A stretch of 35,468 bases of DNA, taken from Lachnospiraceae bacterium. GTDB lineage: Bacteria > Bacillota > Clostridia > Lachnospirales > Lachnospiraceae. Position numbers and translations under genes: made by a program. Shown one piece after another: positions 24,033 through 30,389 of this stretch; the first letter of the stretch is position 1, and every line of letters starts with the position of its first letter. Under the pieces are notes generated by a model that was given only the letters and a program-made list of their open reading frames with translations, did no database searches and was not told where the DNA came from. The DNA lies in contig JAFYBE010000064.1 in the NCBI GenBank assembly GCA_017540355.1, positions 1 through 35,468 on the forward strand, given 5' to 3'.

Positions 24033-25706
24033 ATGGGTATAAACAGATTCAGTGAAAAGCCATATACAAAACGATTCATCAGACTGTTGTCGATTCTGCT
24101 TACGATCGCTGTGATAATGATGCTAACAGGCTGCGACGAAGATGAGGCGTATGATGAAGAGAATTATTCAGAGGAAGAAGAGATTAGTAGCGGTCAGTTT
24201 TTATCGCCTAAGCCTTCTGCAGCCATAGATGCCATATCTGTCGGAACAGATGATAAGTCAGCTACGGTTATGATCTATATGAACGGGTCGGATCTGGAAT
24301 CGGAAGCGGGGGAAGCCACAACGGATATCGCTGAGATGTTAAGCTCGGGTATCGGCAGGAACGTCAATGTCATCATCCAGACCATGGGGACCAGGCAGTG
24401 GCAGGACTACGGGATATCGCATAAGACCGCGCAGACATACAAGGTGGAGAAGGGCGAGCTTAAGCTTATAAGAGACGGTTTGGGTCAGCTTGACTGCACA
24501 TCGGGTGAGACGATGGCCGAGTTTATAGATTACTGCAAGAAAGGTTATCCTGCGGATCGGTATCTTTTTTTATTCTGGGATCACGGCGGCGGACCGGTAT
24601 ACGGCTTCGGTTATGATGAGTGGCAGGATGAGAGCTCGGGGCTTACTATAGCGGAGATGTCGAAGGCATTTGCATCTAACAGTGATGTGAGATTCGATAT
24701 CATCGGCATGGATTGCTGCATAATGGCCAGCATGGAGACCTGCTATGCGCTTGCTCCATACTGTAAATATGCGCTTTTATCCGAGGACTTTGAGTCGGGA
24801 CTCGGTTGGAGTTATACGGGATGGATGAGAGCATTCGAAGAAAATCCCGGAATGTCCACACCGCTTTTGGGAAAATACATCATAGATGATATCATCAGCG
24901 ATAATGAGACGAGTCTTGGCGGCGATTCGTCATGTATGGGACTTTTTAATGTATCTACGTCGAATAATCTGTATGCAGCATGGAAGAAATTTGCCTATAA
25001 GAATGAGGCGGCTTTGCTTGGGACCAATTACAGTCGCGAGCATAAGGCCAAGTCGGCCGGAAGAGGATTCTGGGACCTGTGGGGATTAGATGACAGTGAT
25101 GTCACATTATCGGATTACTATATAAGTGACATGCTGGCTCTTATCGAGAGTGTTGATCCTGACAGTGATGAAGCGAAGGATCTTAAGTCCGCGCTTAAGG
25201 CGTCTGTTGCTTACTACGGACATACCTCGGATAAGAATGAGCTTACCGGACTTGCGGTGTCCCTGCCTTACGGCGATGATGAATTCTATGCACAGTTATC
25301 TGACGTCTACAGTGATATCGGATTCGATGATGAATATATAGACTGGCTTGGCGGCTTCGTATCGGAAGACTACGGCGATGATGATTATTTTGACTTCGGC
25401 ATATTCGAGAGTTTATGGAACGGATGGGGTGCTTATGAGGATGACTACGGCTGTAATATAAGCAACGACGGCGGTTCGTGTGAGTACGGCTATGAATATG
25501 AAGACGAATATGATGATGAGTATTCTGACGAGTACGAAGACGACTGGATATATGACTATGAAGAAGATATCTGGTACATGTACGAGGATGATGTCCTGTA
25601 TCTCTATGATGAGGCGACCGATATGCTGTTCTACTACGATGAATACGATGATGAGATCTATTACTATGATGATGATGCGGACGATTGGTTTGTGTATGAA
25701 GAGTAA
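24033..25706 (+). CDS. Clostripain-family (C11) cysteine peptidase lipoprotein with acidic aromatic tail
   Basis: A 557-residue lipoprotein. The signal peptide ends with lipobox LTGC (C34), so it is anchored to the outer membrane face. The C11 peptidase domain begins ATVMIYMNGSDLE (residues 77-89); the catalytic dyad is H184 in FWDHGGGP and C229 in GMDCCIMAS. C11 peptidases cut after arginine or lysine and often self-process. From about residue 480 the chain is almost all D, E and Y, with W and F: it can be read as short repeats of a hydrophobic aromatic core between acidic pairs (for example IWYMYEDDVLYLYDE). I know of no such tail in clostripain itself. GGGAGAG precedes the ATG. It follows the redox genes after 16 bases. 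Confidence 0.9.
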   Translation: MGINRFSEKPYTKRFIRLLSILLTIAVIMMLTGCDEDEAYDEENYSEEEEISSGQFLSPKPSAAIDAISVGTDDKSATVMIYMNGSDLESEAGEATTDIAEMLSSGIGRNVNVIIQTMGTRQWQDYGISHKTAQTYKVEKGELKLIRDGLGQLDCTSGETMAEFIDYCKKGYPADRYLFLFWDHGGGPVYGFGYDEWQDESSGLTIAEMSKAFASNSDVRFDIIGMDCCIMASMETCYALAPYCKYALLSEDFESGLGWSYTGWMRAFEENPGMSTPLLGKYIIDDIISDNETSLGGDSSCMGLFNVSTSNNLYAAWKKFAYKNEAALLGTNYSREHKAKSAGRGFWDLWGLDDSDVTLSDYYISDMLALIESVDPDSDEAKDLKSALKASVAYYGHTSDKNELTGLAVSLPYGDDEFYAQLSDVYSDIGFDDEYIDWLGGFVSEDYGDDDYFDFGIFESLWNGWGAYEDDYGCNISNDGGSCEYGYEYEDEYDDEYSDEYEDDWIYDYEEDIWYMYEDDVLYLYDEATDMLFYYDEYDDEIYYYDDDADDWFVYEE

Positions 25707-25738: not shown

Positions 25739-26002
25739 AATTTACGGAAGTAATCCGGGAAATAGGCGGAACTTCCGTAAATTTCAGTTTGTAAATATGT
25801 ATAATTCTCATTTATTTACGGAACTATTGGCCCAAATAGCTGATACTTCCGTAAATTTTTATGTGTGAATAAAAATTTCCAGGGGAATTTTACGGAAGTA
25901 ACGATTAAAATGGGCAAAAGTTCCGTAATTTGGGACATCAGAATCAGCAGCATCGAGATATGATTACGGAAGTAACTGCCAAAACAGGCAAAAGTTCCGT
26001 AA
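25739..26002 (+). repeat. Phased array of four 39-bp inverted-repeat units, 74-bp period
   Basis: This is the main content of the 427-base gap between the clostripain gene and gyrB. The 8-mer TTACGGAA occurs at 25742, 25816, 25890 and 25964, and its complement TTCCGTAA at 25773, 25847, 25921 and 25995. Each pair has exactly 23 bases between arms; units are 39 bp and spacers 35 bp, giving an exact 74-bp period. Unit 1 has 13-bp arms and unit 2 has 10-bp arms. The interiors are related (CTTTTGCCC and GTTACTTCC towards one side), with unit 2 in the opposite orientation to 1, 3 and 4. Spacings of 31, 43 and 74 bp are close to 3, 4 and 7 turns of DNA, so all boxes face the same side. The function is unknown. 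Confidence 0.9.
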
Positions 26003-26027: not shown

Positions 26028-26055
26028 TTGACGAAGGCACAAAATATGGTAAAAT
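26028..26055 (+). promoter_or_regulatory. Strong extended -10 promoter for the topoisomerase operon
   Basis: TTGACG (26028-26033), 16 bases, TAAAAT (26050-26055), with TG at 26047-26048. It lies 25 bases after the last repeat box and gives a leader of about 70 bases before gyrB. Confidence 0.75.
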
Positions 26056-26133: not shown

Positions 26134-28074
26134 ATGGCAGTTAATACCAATAATAAAGCAAAAGATACATATGATGCGTCCAATATTACGGTTTTAGAGG
26201 GACTTGAGGCTGTAAGAGTGCGCCCCGGTATGTATATCGGAAGCGTATCTACAAAGGGACTTAATCATCTGATATATGAGATTGTAGATAACTCGGTCGA
26301 CGAGCATCTTGCCGGACATTGCAGCAGGATTCACGTAACTCTTGAAGCTGACGGTTCGGCTACGATAGAGGATAACGGACGCGGTATCCCCATTGAGATG
26401 CATGAGAAAGGAATGAGTGCCGAGAGACTTGTGTTCACGACTCTTCATGCCGGCGGTAAGTTTGACGATTCGGCGTATAAGACAAGCGGCGGTCTGCACG
26501 GTGTCGGAAGTTCGGTCGTCAATGCTTTGTCGAACCGTCTGACTGTACGAGTTAAAAAGAACGGTCACATTTACGAGGACTCATATGAGAGGGGTGTGCC
26601 GACCACCGAACTTATTAAGGGCCTTCTGCCCGAAGTTGGCAATACCAGGGAGACCGGTACGACAATCAATTTCCTTCCGGATGATACGATATTTGACAAG
26701 ACCTGGTTCAGGGAAGAGGACGTTAAGTCAAGACTTCATGAGACGGCTTATCTTAATCCCGGACTTACGATAATTTTTGAGGATAAGCGTAAGCCTGAGC
26801 AGGAATATGTTGAGTTCCATGAGCCCGACGGACTTGTGGGCTTTATTCAGGATATGAACAGGGCCAAGGAGATCATCCATGAGCCCGTATATCTTAAGGG
26901 CGAGGCTGAGGGCATCACTGTGGAAGTTGCATTTCAGTATGTGAATGAGTTCCATGAGAATGTTCTCGGATTCTGTAACAACATATATAACTCCGAGGGC
27001 GGAACACATCTGACCGGTTTTAAGACGACTTTTACAACGGTCATGAATAACTATGCCCGTCAGATAGGAATACTTAAGGATAAGGATGCGAACTTTACGG
27101 GTACCGATGTGCGTAACGGTATGACTGCAATAGTATCTATTAAGCATCCCGACCCCAGATTCGAGGGTCAGACCAAGACCAAGCTTGATAATCAGGATGC
27201 GGCCAAGGTTGTAGGTAAGGTAACGGGCGATGAGATGGTGCATTTCTTTGACCGTAATCTCGAGACGCTTAAGGCGGTACTCGGATGCGCCGAGAAGGCA
27301 GCCAAGATCCGTAAGAGCGAAGAGAAGGCCAAGACCAATATGTTATCAAAGCCTAAGTACAGCTTTGATTCTAACGGAAAGTTAAGCAACTGCGAGTCAA
27401 GAGAAGCCGAGAAGTGTGAGATCTTCATAGTCGAGGGAGATTCTGCCGGCGGCAGCGCCAAGACTGCAAGATACAGGATGTATCAGGCAATCCTGCCTAT
27501 AAGAGGTAAGATACTTAACGTTGAGAAAGCCTCCATTGATAAGGTGCTTGCCAATGCCGAGATCAAGACCATGATCAATGCGTTCGGATGCGGTTTTTCC
27601 GAAGGCTACGGCAATGACTTTGATATAAGCAGGTTAAGATATAACAAGATAATAATCATGGCGGATGCCGACGTCGATGGTGAGCATATAAGCACGCTTC
27701 TGCTGACGCTTTTCTACAGATTCATGCCCGAACTCATATACGAAGGACATGTATATCTTGCTATGTCGCCGCTTTATAAGGCGATACCCGCCAAGGGAGA
27801 AGAGGAGTATCTTTATGACGATGCGGCGCTTGAGAAGTACCGCAAGAATCATAAGGGCAGTTTTACGCTGCAGAGATATAAGGGTCTTGGCGAGATGGAT
27901 GCCGAGCAGTTATGGGAGACAACTCTTGATCCCGCAAGACGTAAGTTGAGGCTTGTTGAGATAGAAGATGCGAGAATGGCTTCGGATGTGACCGAGCTTT
28001 TGATGGGCAATGACGTTGCGCCCCGTAAGACATTCATATACGAACATGCCAAGGATGCCTTGCTTGATATATAA
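26134..28074 (+). CDS. gyrB: Type IIA topoisomerase B subunit (GyrB-like)
   Basis: This 646-residue ATPase subunit drives strand passage. The GHKL ATPase domain has E49 and N53 in YEIVDNSVDE, DNGRGIP (80-86) and GGLHGVGSS (119-127). The transducer (ITVEVAFQYVNEFHENV, GGTHLTGFKTTF) is followed by the TOPRIM domain with EGDSAGGSA and DADVDGEH, and the closing LQRYKGLGEMDAEQLWETT. The ending ALLDI, the HPDPRFEGQTKTKL stretch and KILNVEKA are closer to GyrB than to ParE. There is no adjacent dnaA, dnaN or recF, so it is not the usual oriC copy and may be a second pair. AGGAG is correctly placed. The gyrB symbol is a similarity call; gyrase versus topo IV activity is open. Confidence 0.85.
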   Translation: MAVNTNNKAKDTYDASNITVLEGLEAVRVRPGMYIGSVSTKGLNHLIYEIVDNSVDEHLAGHCSRIHVTLEADGSATIEDNGRGIPIEMHEKGMSAERLVFTTLHAGGKFDDSAYKTSGGLHGVGSSVVNALSNRLTVRVKKNGHIYEDSYERGVPTTELIKGLLPEVGNTRETGTTINFLPDDTIFDKTWFREEDVKSRLHETAYLNPGLTIIFEDKRKPEQEYVEFHEPDGLVGFIQDMNRAKEIIHEPVYLKGEAEGITVEVAFQYVNEFHENVLGFCNNIYNSEGGTHLTGFKTTFTTVMNNYARQIGILKDKDANFTGTDVRNGMTAIVSIKHPDPRFEGQTKTKLDNQDAAKVVGKVTGDEMVHFFDRNLETLKAVLGCAEKAAKIRKSEEKAKTNMLSKPKYSFDSNGKLSNCESREAEKCEIFIVEGDSAGGSAKTARYRMYQAILPIRGKILNVEKASIDKVLANAEIKTMINAFGCGFSEGYGNDFDISRLRYNKIIIMADADVDGEHISTLLLTLFYRFMPELIYEGHVYLAMSPLYKAIPAKGEEEYLYDDAALEKYRKNHKGSFTLQRYKGLGEMDAEQLWETTLDPARRKLRLVEIEDARMASDVTELLMGNDVAPRKTFIYEHAKDALLDI

Positions 28075-28127: not shown

Positions 28128-30389
28128 ATGGCCGGTAAGAACAGTGTTCAGGTAATTGAAGAAGATATAATCAAGACCGAATATTCGGAGATAATGCAGA
28201 AGTCTTTCATAGACTATGCCATGAGTGTCATCGTGGCAAGAGCGCTTCCGGATGTAAGGGACGGACTTAAGCCCGTACAGCGCCGTACTCTGTATGATAT
28301 GTATGAGCTCGGTGTAAGGTATGACAAGCCCTATCGTAAGAGCGCCCGTATAGTGGGTGATACAATGGGTAAATATCATCCTCACGGTGACAGTTCGATA
28401 TATGATGCGCTCGTTAATATGAGCCAGGAATTCAAGAAGGGGCTGCCACTTGTTGACGGTCACGGTAACTTCGGTAATATCGAAGGTGACGGCGCCGCTG
28501 CAATGCGATACACGGAGGCAAGACTTCAGAAGATCACTCAGGACGGTCTGCTTGCAGATCTTGATAAGGATGTGGTCGACTTCGGACCCAACTTTGATGA
28601 GACAGAGAAGGAGCCCTCGGTTTTACCATGTCGCTTCCCGAACCTGCTTGTTAACGGTACCGAAGGTATCGCCGTGGGTATGGCTACGTCCATCCCGCCT
28701 CACAATCTCGGTGAAGTCATCGATGCGATGAAGGCATATATGAAGGATGAGACGATCTCTACGCGTGCGCTTATGAAGTACTGTAAGGGCCCCGATTTCC
28801 CGACAGGCGGAATCATCTCGAACAAAGATGAGCTTCTTGCGATATATGAGACCGGTATGGGCAAGGTTAAGATTCGCGGTAAGGTGGAGACGGAGAAGGG
28901 CAAGAACGGTCATACGAACGTTGTGATAACCGAGATTCCCTTTACGATGATCGGTGCCAATATTACAAAGTTTTTACAGGATGTTGCAGCGCTTGCCGAT
29001 TCCAAGAAAGCTCCCGACATAGTCGATATCTCTAACCAGTCTTCGAAGGAAGGCATAAGAATCGTTATCGAGCTTAAGAAGGACGCGAACGTAGATAATT
29101 TCATCAATCTCTTATATAAAAAGACGAGGCTCCAGGACACCTTCGGCTTTAACATGCTTGCAATCGCAGGCGGACGCCCGGAGACGATGGGACTTAAGAG
29201 AGTACTTAAGGAGTGCGTGGACTTCCAGTATGAGCTGGCGACCCGTAAGTACACCAATCTTTTGCACAAAGAGCAGGAGAAGAAGGAGATACAGGAAGGT
29301 CTTATCAAGGCTTGCAACGTTATCGACCTTATCATAGAGATATTAAGAGGCAGTAAGGACAGAGCGATGGCCAAGGCCTGCCTTATAGAAGGTAAGACCG
29401 AAGGGATCAACTTTAAGTCCAAGGAATCCAAGGTTATGGCGGCTACGTTAATGTTTACGGAGCCTCAGGCCAATGCGATCCTTGATATGCGTCTGTATAA
29501 ATTGATCGGCCTGGAGATTGATGCTTTGATCAAGGAGCATGAAGACACAGTTGCCAATATTTTCCGATATGAGGATATTCTGGATCGTAAGGATTCGATG
29601 GCTCAGGTTATCATGAATGATCTCGATGCAATCAAGAAGGAATTCTCGCGTCCCAGAAGGACGGTTATAGACAATCTTGAGGAAGTTGTGGTCGAAGAGG
29701 TCAAGGTTCCGGAGATGGATGTGATGTTTGCGATGGATCGTTTCGGCTATGCCAAGATCATCGATGTCAGCACATACGAGCGTAACAAAGAGGCGTGCGA
29801 GGAAGAATTCAAGTACCTGTGTAAGTGTAAGAATACGGGTAAGATATGCCTGTTTACGAATACCGGTAATCTGCATACATTCAAGGCTTCAGAACTTCCA
29901 ACGGCGAAGCTTAGGGATAAGGGCGTGCCGATTGACAATGTCAGTAACTTCTCGTCCGCCGAAGAGAATATCATAGCCGTGGCAAGTCAGAGTGATCTTA
30001 ATCTTTACAGGATACTCTTTGTTACGAAGCAATCGATGTGTAAGGTTGTGGACGGCGGAGAGTTTGATGTGGCCAAGAGAACGGTTGCGGCGACGAAGCT
30101 TATGGATGATGATGAAGTCGTATCGGTTGTACCGCTTACGGACCGCAAGTACATCACGATGCTTACGAACAACAGCATGTACATAAGGTTTGAGATAGCT
30201 GAGATACCGGAGAAGAAGAAGGTGGCCGTCGGCGTAAGATGTATGAAGCTTTCAGCCGGTGACTATGTCGATAAGGTTTACTACACGGGTGAGTTTGACG
30301 AGACCGTTATGGAAGCGGGCTCCGGCAAGATTGCGGTTAACAGCCTTAAGCTTTCAAAGCGTGACGGTAAAGGAACGAAGCTTAAGTAG
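28128..30389 (+). CDS. Type IIA topoisomerase A subunit without GyrA box
   Basis: This 753-residue subunit breaks and rejoins DNA. The catalytic tyrosine is Y128 (AAAMRYTEARL), and the quinolone-contact residues S89 and D93 (HGDSSIYDAL) are wild type. Helical breakage-reunion domain marks include SARIVGDTMGKYHPHGD and PPHNLGEVIDA. The C-terminal domain (about residues 520-753) has β-pinwheel-like blades (FAMDRFGYAKII, LFTNTGNLHTFKA), but where the gyrase-specific GyrA box should stand it reads NKEACEEEF. The chain is shorter than GyrA (about 820). It is therefore ParC-like in the part that decides supercoiling, although its B partner looks like GyrB. It lies 53 bases after gyrB. Confidence 0.85.
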   Translation: MAGKNSVQVIEEDIIKTEYSEIMQKSFIDYAMSVIVARALPDVRDGLKPVQRRTLYDMYELGVRYDKPYRKSARIVGDTMGKYHPHGDSSIYDALVNMSQEFKKGLPLVDGHGNFGNIEGDGAAAMRYTEARLQKITQDGLLADLDKDVVDFGPNFDETEKEPSVLPCRFPNLLVNGTEGIAVGMATSIPPHNLGEVIDAMKAYMKDETISTRALMKYCKGPDFPTGGIISNKDELLAIYETGMGKVKIRGKVETEKGKNGHTNVVITEIPFTMIGANITKFLQDVAALADSKKAPDIVDISNQSSKEGIRIVIELKKDANVDNFINLLYKKTRLQDTFGFNMLAIAGGRPETMGLKRVLKECVDFQYELATRKYTNLLHKEQEKKEIQEGLIKACNVIDLIIEILRGSKDRAMAKACLIEGKTEGINFKSKESKVMAATLMFTEPQANAILDMRLYKLIGLEIDALIKEHEDTVANIFRYEDILDRKDSMAQVIMNDLDAIKKEFSRPRRTVIDNLEEVVVEEVKVPEMDVMFAMDRFGYAKIIDVSTYERNKEACEEEFKYLCKCKNTGKICLFTNTGNLHTFKASELPTAKLRDKGVPIDNVSNFSSAEENIIAVASQSDLNLYRILFVTKQSMCKVVDGGEFDVAKRTVAATKLMDDDEVVSVVPLTDRKYITMLTNNSMYIRFEIAEIPEKKKVAVGVRCMKLSAGDYVDKVYYTGEFDETVMEAGSGKIAVNSLKLSKRDGKGTKLK

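Follow-up and report, generated by a model that had tools for sequence, protein, structure and literature searches.

Helically phased inverted-repeat arrays in Lachnospiraceae and an associated family of PD-(D/E)xK-like genes

The closest described relatives of the arrays reported here are the REPtrons, in which dispersed, species-specific REP or REPIN repeats flank a dedicated enzyme gene, RAYT (TnpA-REP), and co-vary with it (PMC2817692, PMC8266576). Our arrays are similar in that an enzyme gene is flanked by cognate, co-varying repeats (52 of 63 loci; of 40 controls, two periodic and none with inverted arms; Mantel p 0.0005). There are, however, two differences. The protein is PD-(D/E)xK-like, and a Pfam search with 16 homologs at E 0.1 found neither Y1_Tnp nor any other transposase domain. 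The repeats are phased by whole helical turns and carry a duplex bend code, whereas REPtron repeats are structured single-strand hairpins. REPtron repeats usually exceed 100 copies per genome; our counts vary, with 167 units in one genome (G010), five exact units in the assembly that prompted this work (G000) and one G010 arm found beside its gene only. Because a HuH/Y1 domain was not seen in the enzyme and the repeats act like phased sites in duplex DNA, we do not regard the arrays as a member of the REPtrons. The BIMEs, described as protein-bound, regularly spaced repeats of alternating orientation (PMC2817692), share the regular spacing and the alternation with our arrays, but here two short inverted arms enclose a degenerate interior, and the associated gene family is another one. 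To CRISPR there is a resemblance only, a regular array adjoining a nuclease-like gene: the repeats are not identical (the 8-bp arms alone are constant), spacer lengths vary between arrays, and the window has no Rfam match. Finally, the C-terminal domain of the protein is homologous to the PADLOC PDC-S68 domain of large AAA ATPases/helicases, but the array-linked protein is a stand-alone one of about 270 aa with its own N-terminus of about 150 residues. Searches of openly accessible literature showed no description of nuclease-linked phased arrays; the system is apparently undescribed, and widespread in gut bacteria.

The starting point was one array in a 35,468-nucleotide contig of a Lachnospiraceae bacterium (JAFYBE010000064.1), the whole of which is called the window. 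An exact-match scan of the window found four TTACGGAA-N23-TTCCGTAA units with a period of 74 bp and 35-bp spacers, thus eight boxes, none of which has a mismatch (Table 1). The box positions, the 23-base gaps, the 35-bp spacers and the identity of the arms had all been read correctly in the original prediction, made from the letters alone, which had also noticed no other copy of the 8-mer in the window: there are eight exact TTACGGAA/TTCCGTAA matches, all within the array. When one mismatch was allowed, the window contained 67 matches vs. 26.3 expected from shuffles (largest shuffle 38). The upstream C11 peptidase gene has its stop codon 36 bp before the array, and the genus possesses a paralog (52-53%) of the GyrB/ParE-like B subunit encoded downstream.

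Table 1. Features in and around the window array
Feature	Position	Strand	Source
Clostripain-type C11 peptidase gene, upstream of array	24033..25706	+	Pfam Peptidase_C11, E 1.1e-25
Unit 1, TTACGGAA-N23-TTCCGTAA	25742..25780	no strand	Exact-match scans of window and assembly
Unit 2, 74 bp after unit 1	25816..25854	no strand	Exact-match scans of window and assembly
Unit 3, 74 bp after unit 2	25890..25928	no strand	Exact-match scans of window and assembly
Unit 4, 74 bp after unit 3	25964..26002	no strand	Exact-match scans of window and assembly
35-bp spacers 1, 2, 3	25781..25815, 25855..25889, 25929..25963	no strand	
Promoter-like TTGACG-N16-TAAAAT, downstream of array	26028..26055	+	By-eye reading
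GyrB/ParE-like type II topoisomerase B subunit gene	26134..28074	+	
Partner A subunit gene (GyrA/ParC-like)	28128..30389	+	

The exact unit occurs five times in the whole of G000 (1.92 Mb in 120 contigs, 80% complete), the reversed control not at all, and loosening the gap to 10-40 yielded no further units. The fifth unit is on contig C4 (C4:660), downstream of a gene that by eye appears glutamate-dehydrogenase-like; a CTACGGAA..TTCCGTAG unit precedes it by 74 bp. With a gap of 20-26, exact units were present in five of 20 genus genomes (five in G000, one in G013, 15 in G014, 17 in G015 and 11 in G019), and the reversed control gave 0 matches; the single G013 unit, with a gap of 20, is probably a chance match. 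Among 397 genomes of the family (gap 21-25) twelve had a match, with more than one copy only in G000 (5) and G300 (4); the reversed control, AATGCCTT..AAGGCATT, matched in eight genomes. Nine of its matches are in G271 (6.2 Mb), where it is perhaps an unrelated dispersed inverted repeat of that genome. Array-bearing records include the MAGs RUG12349 (= G014), RUG12483 (= G015), RUG12161 and RGIG2452, named Lachnospiraceae in the records. The arrays are mainly intergenic, usually about 150 bp or less from the nearest gene, and their neighbours, named by eye from the proteins, are unrelated (tuf, gdhA, groEL-like, amylase/PadR-like and others); some small mechanically called ORFs and, in L133, one long ORF open at the end of the locus overlap arrays. 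The window array belongs to an array family that is dispersed, and mostly intergenic, in rumen and gut Lachnospiraceae. TTACGGAA/TTCCGTAA units at 75 and 106 bp were also seen on a contig binned as Fibrobacter sp. from horse feces (L129, JAKSID010000090.1), which either lies outside Lachnospiraceae or is mis-binned.

Some of the arrays stand beside a particular gene. In G014 (L270:4591-5499) a 302-codon gene ends 57 bp from an array, and in G015 (L280) a 53% homolog of it starts 96 bp from one. Homologs were detected in 124 of the 397 family genomes (E 1e-15). We compared 63 homolog loci with 40 control windows on 20 contigs that carry homologs; the 63 comprise 15 loci of the genus, L133, 27 of the 30 returned by the family search and 20 more among the matches listed there. 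All 63 are high-scoring or genus homologs and no random draw, 20 of them chosen away from contig ends; L319 (a duplicate of L307), L324 (internal stop), L330 (ORF overlapping the array) and the gene fragment L318 were left out, although L330 does have a 62-bp array. The lag scan scored 60 or more within 1.5 kb at 48 of the 63 loci vs. 2 of the 40 controls (Fisher 1e-13); at a threshold of 70 the counts were 43/63 vs. 1/40, and at 55, 52/63 vs. 5/40. Alternating inverted arms were present at 27/63 homolog loci vs. 0/40 controls. Both signals were seen at 23 loci, at least one at 52 and neither at 11. Only 23 of the 48 periodic loci also have at least four alternating inverted arms, and some lag-scan positives are short tandem repeats of a different kind (17 bp in L334, 24 bp in L360). 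Lag scans had replaced counts of inverted 8-mers, which were rejected as a metric for their poor discrimination (9/30 homolog loci vs. 4/39 others). In an early lag scan a first control set of 39 loci included high scorers, namely L293, L294 (which is itself a site of G300 units) and several loci whose lags are multiples of 3; the matched windows took its place. In 39 of the 48 located cases the array is 5' of the gene; in one of these the measured array is 7.8 kb away, with another stretch of that period nearer to the gene. The association between gene and array is firm.

For the TTACGGAA arrays themselves the link to the gene is drawn from G014 and G015 only, because no homolog was detected in G000 (searches at E 1e-8 and E 1e-15; assembly 80% complete) and the sole homolog of G019, a genome with many TTACGGAA arrays, stands at a G018-type locus with a AGTCCTACC box upstream. 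The two TTACGGAA gene loci (L303 and L304) were found by the inverted-arm test and missed by the lag scan at the threshold used. At the site in G000 that corresponds to the array and gene of G014, two flanking blocks align and array and gene are missing, 1.3 kb of G014 sequence being replaced by about 80 bp. The G019 and G018 homologs (L305 and L306) adjoin what is by eye the same peptidase-like gene; L306 retains a 53-bp array, and L305 has just a single AGTCCTACC box close to the start of its contig. In G000 and G019 the TTACGGAA arrays may thus be leftovers of a gene that was lost or is unassembled.

The arms differ from gene to gene. Those at gene loci include TACCGAA, AGTCCTA, CGATGTA, GGCCCAC, CAGTCGG, AACCGTA and TACGTAC, and across 27 loci the more alike the proteins are, the more alike the arms tend to be (Mantel r 0.31, p 0.0005); similar proteins with unlike arms also occur (71% identity, TCCGGAA vs. 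ATACGTA). G010 has three homologs, each with different neighbouring repeats, the one at C21 with direct repeats and without called inverted arms. One G010 pattern, ATACATCG-N24-CGATGTAT with at most one mismatch, occurs 167 times in that genome and not once in 19 other genus genomes; in the loci read, 13 of 70 units lie inside mechanically called ORFs of at least 100 codons. Another, GTGGGCCT-N21-AGGCCCAC, was found there seven times with up to two mismatches allowed, every copy exact and beside the gene, and three other genomes have one two-mismatch match each. Dispersal is therefore optional, since this second pattern occurs in G010 beside its gene only. A second repeat, TTTCCCGCG.., with a period of 63, was observed flanking the G010 homolog that has the ATACATCGG array (L307:3515-3766 and L307:1027-1138).

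The units are spaced by whole turns of the helix. In the arrays of G000, G014, G015 and G019 the unit-to-unit distances are 64, 73-75, 84-86 and 137-138 bp, and a scan of periods from 9 to 12.5 bp gave 10.50 bp as the best common period (R=0.974, n=35 distances from the four genomes, not counting the window array's copy in G019). When each distinct distance was counted once per array (17 values), the observed coherence was reached by none of 20,000 random sets; with the four distance classes only, it was reached by 10 of 20,000 at a fixed 10.5 bp and by 251 of 20,000 with the period free. The placement of all boxes on one face of B-DNA, conjectured at the outset, agrees with this 10.50-bp comb of unit distances. 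At the gene-linked loci the 48 periods cluster at 51-53, 61-64, 71-74 and 86-106 bp; four of them (41, 45, 45 and 48) are off the comb or wrongly read. The raw R at 10.5 bp was 0.77, and 0.81 once six lags had been set by hand, a value reached in 0 of 20,000 simulations, which is not a strict probability because the loci share ancestry; when every integer period was counted once, 4 of 20,000 reached the observed value. No clear 10-bp A/T oscillation was seen in 13 spacers of period-74 arrays. Unit pairs 137-138 bp apart in G014 and G019 (L273, L274, L279 and L287), between which the sequence is partly alike by eye, look like a longer composite element copied several times.

The interior of the unit follows a composition code as well. 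In 41 distinct N23 units, some of which are related by descent, the A/T fraction falls from 1.00 at the central position and 0.95 next to it (±1) to 0.21-0.28 over ±4 to 6 (0.21-0.22 at ±4/5) and rises again to 0.88-0.98 over ±8 to 10. The 71 distinct G010 units (79 read), which have other arms, show the same code, with 0.89-0.90 at the centre, 0.20-0.27 at ±5.5/6.5 and 0.89-0.95 at ±8.5/9.5; in the mean of 27 arm families the code weakens to 0.73, 0.53 and 0.75. Such an alternation of A/T, G/C and A/T is that of DNA bent around protein. In the array units of G000, G014 and G019 whose arms have one or two mismatches at any position, the outermost base accounts for 21 of the 22 mismatches (hand count; binomial p 2e-18), twelve scattered two-mismatch matches outside arrays, three each in G000, G014, G015 and G019, being excluded from this count. 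The arm core is thus nearly invariant, in keeping with the idea in the original prediction that the arms are selected. Its companion statement, that the arms are constant and the interiors differ, holds for the arms; the interiors do vary, but they follow the strong A/T-G/C code and so are not free.

Starting from the arrays, their phasing, the interior code, the association with the gene and the gene-specific arms, all of them established by sequence statistics, we think that the window array is probably a dispersed member of the genome-specific duplex binding-site arrays of a new PD-(D/E)xK-like, array-associated protein family. The cognate protein likely binds the arrays: a dimer would hold both of the inverted 8-bp arms, which lie some three turns of the helix from each other, and the interior, with A/T at the centre, G/C around ±5 and A/T around ±9, would let the DNA bend between them. 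Since neighbouring units are whole helical turns apart, the complexes would stack on one face. The usual position of the array on the 5' side of the gene makes autoregulation of the nuclease-like gene through this array likely. The protein may also cut the arrays, and in some genomes they would have spread through intergenic DNA as non-autonomous repeats, a nuclease-driven spread, via provoked breaks and copying repair, being the most plausible route. We also put forward, more tentatively and as something that we would not yet call probable, a self-spreading architecture in which paired-half-site nucleases recognise their own inverted duplex word, bend the DNA and build or copy arrays on one face, a double-strand counterpart of the REPtron; if so, lineages would come to have repeat words of their own and phased binding arrays across the chromosome. 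Dispersed repeats of bacteria would then have a second class of cognate enzyme, unrelated to the first; its gene family was found in 124 of the 397 sampled genomes of a major gut family. The helical comb makes a clear physical prediction, the many natural pairs of protein and word make DNA recognition directly testable, and these pairs could yield new paired-site DNA-binding nuclease domains.

The phasing and the bend code require some bound protein without naming which, and it could be another one: the arrays might serve the host as sites of a nucleoid or regulatory protein, for chromosome organisation or gene control, with the nuclease-like gene merely travelling along. The persistence of arrays in G000, where the gene was not detected, and the near invariance of the arm core would suit such a role. 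We nevertheless consider it unlikely, because the gene-specific arms track the nuclease-like protein, the three homologs within the single genome G010 have differing neighbour repeats, and 39 of the 48 located arrays are 5' of the gene (one measured at 7.8 kb).

No Pfam or NCBIfam family was assigned to the nuclease-like protein (16 homologs in the Pfam scan, E 0.1), and in its N-terminal part no domain for DNA binding was recognised. At E ≤0.1 the C-terminus matched the PADLOC profiles PDC-S68 in 16 of 16 members and HEAT_CxxC_PDDEXK in 15 of 16, and the phage endonuclease phrog_29037 in 8 of 16. Invariant in all 66 aligned rows (65 genes, one entered twice) are R152-S153-K154, E156, P185-D186-F187, E201-H202 and G204 (L306 numbering). 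Conserved acidic residues surround the PD motif as in the PD-(D/E)xK superfamily; the canonical ExK lysine was not seen in this alignment. A PDB sequence search gave weak matches only, to a carbon-nitrogen hydrolase (E 0.091, N-terminal part) and to endonuclease I (E 1.4). Searches of plasmids and phages mostly hit the C-terminal nuclease-like end: there were eight plasmid matches to this domain, seven of them annotated as AAA ATPase, RecQ or RecD-like, and the one longer match in a phage record had no strong periodic array. Since the PADLOC profiles are candidates for defence, the protein could be an anti-phage or anti-plasmid nuclease that the arrays sequester, or for which they mark self. 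This seems to us quite improbable: the matches of member 1 are limited to the C-terminal part and are mostly to the ends of far larger profiles, no defence partner was recognised by eye among the first-neighbour genes of the arrays, and as many as 167 genomic units would be odd for a mark of self.

The units might instead be hairpin repeats, REP or terminator-like, that work as RNA or single-stranded DNA. Of the four window units, three fold well (z -5.5 to -7.8), and in the 41 units positions 9 and 31 are complementary more often than in shuffled sequences (29/41, p 0.004). Against this, the fold of unit 3 is not beyond chance (z -0.7), the symmetric interior pairs are mostly at or below the shuffled level, with 13/27, 17/23 and 19/21 complementary less often than shuffled, and hairpins would not be expected to show helical phasing. 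The interior does not pair as in a hairpin, and a hairpin function, disfavoured on these grounds, is very improbable. An RNA family was rejected as a reading of the array, the Rfam scan of the window having found none.

The array next to the topoisomerase gene is a passenger. At 18 orthologous loci an array was found upstream of the topoisomerase B gene in three, with four units each in G000 and G019, and in G014 one intact unit followed 73 bp on by a decayed one; in G005, which has the same upstream gene as G000, it is absent. The TTGACG-N16-TAAAAT promoter recurs without an array in G005 and G018, and other relatives retain only part of it (by eye). In a MAFFT alignment of four of these upstream regions, of which the G000, G019 and G014 rows were used and the G005 row, taken from a wrong stretch, was dropped, G000 and G019 differ at 0 of 64 arm bases and 9 of 197 other array bases, a difference which is not significant (p 0.12). 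A conserved topoisomerase operator was accordingly rejected, 15 of the 18 loci being without the array. That the array is a dedicated regulator of the topoisomerase operon is scarcely credible, although in G000 and G019 it stands immediately before the promoter, given its presence at only three of the orthologous loci, the identical promoter sequence without it in G005 and G018, and the unrelated genes that flank arrays elsewhere. The original prediction had offered a repeat-spanning protein complex that perhaps controls supercoiling genes or organises the chromosome and, as the alternative, a dispersed REP-like family; control of supercoiling genes is not supported in view of the 3/18 loci and the array-less promoters, and both alternatives are otherwise partly right, since phased boxes, constrained arms and a dispersed REP-like family are all supported.

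Sites resembling atacTTACGGAAgtat in promoter regions are treated apart from the arrays, because the genes that flank them on viral and other contigs gave no link to arrays. They were seen on the viral contigs L173, L174, L188, L196, L198, L202, L209, L215, L228, L229, L231, L235 and L237 and on the bacterial contigs L048 and L298, and are possibly promoter operators of mobile elements, bound by an element-borne regulator. Often two or three of them stand together at steps near 31 and 38 bp, the 8-mer and a step being shared with the window unit.
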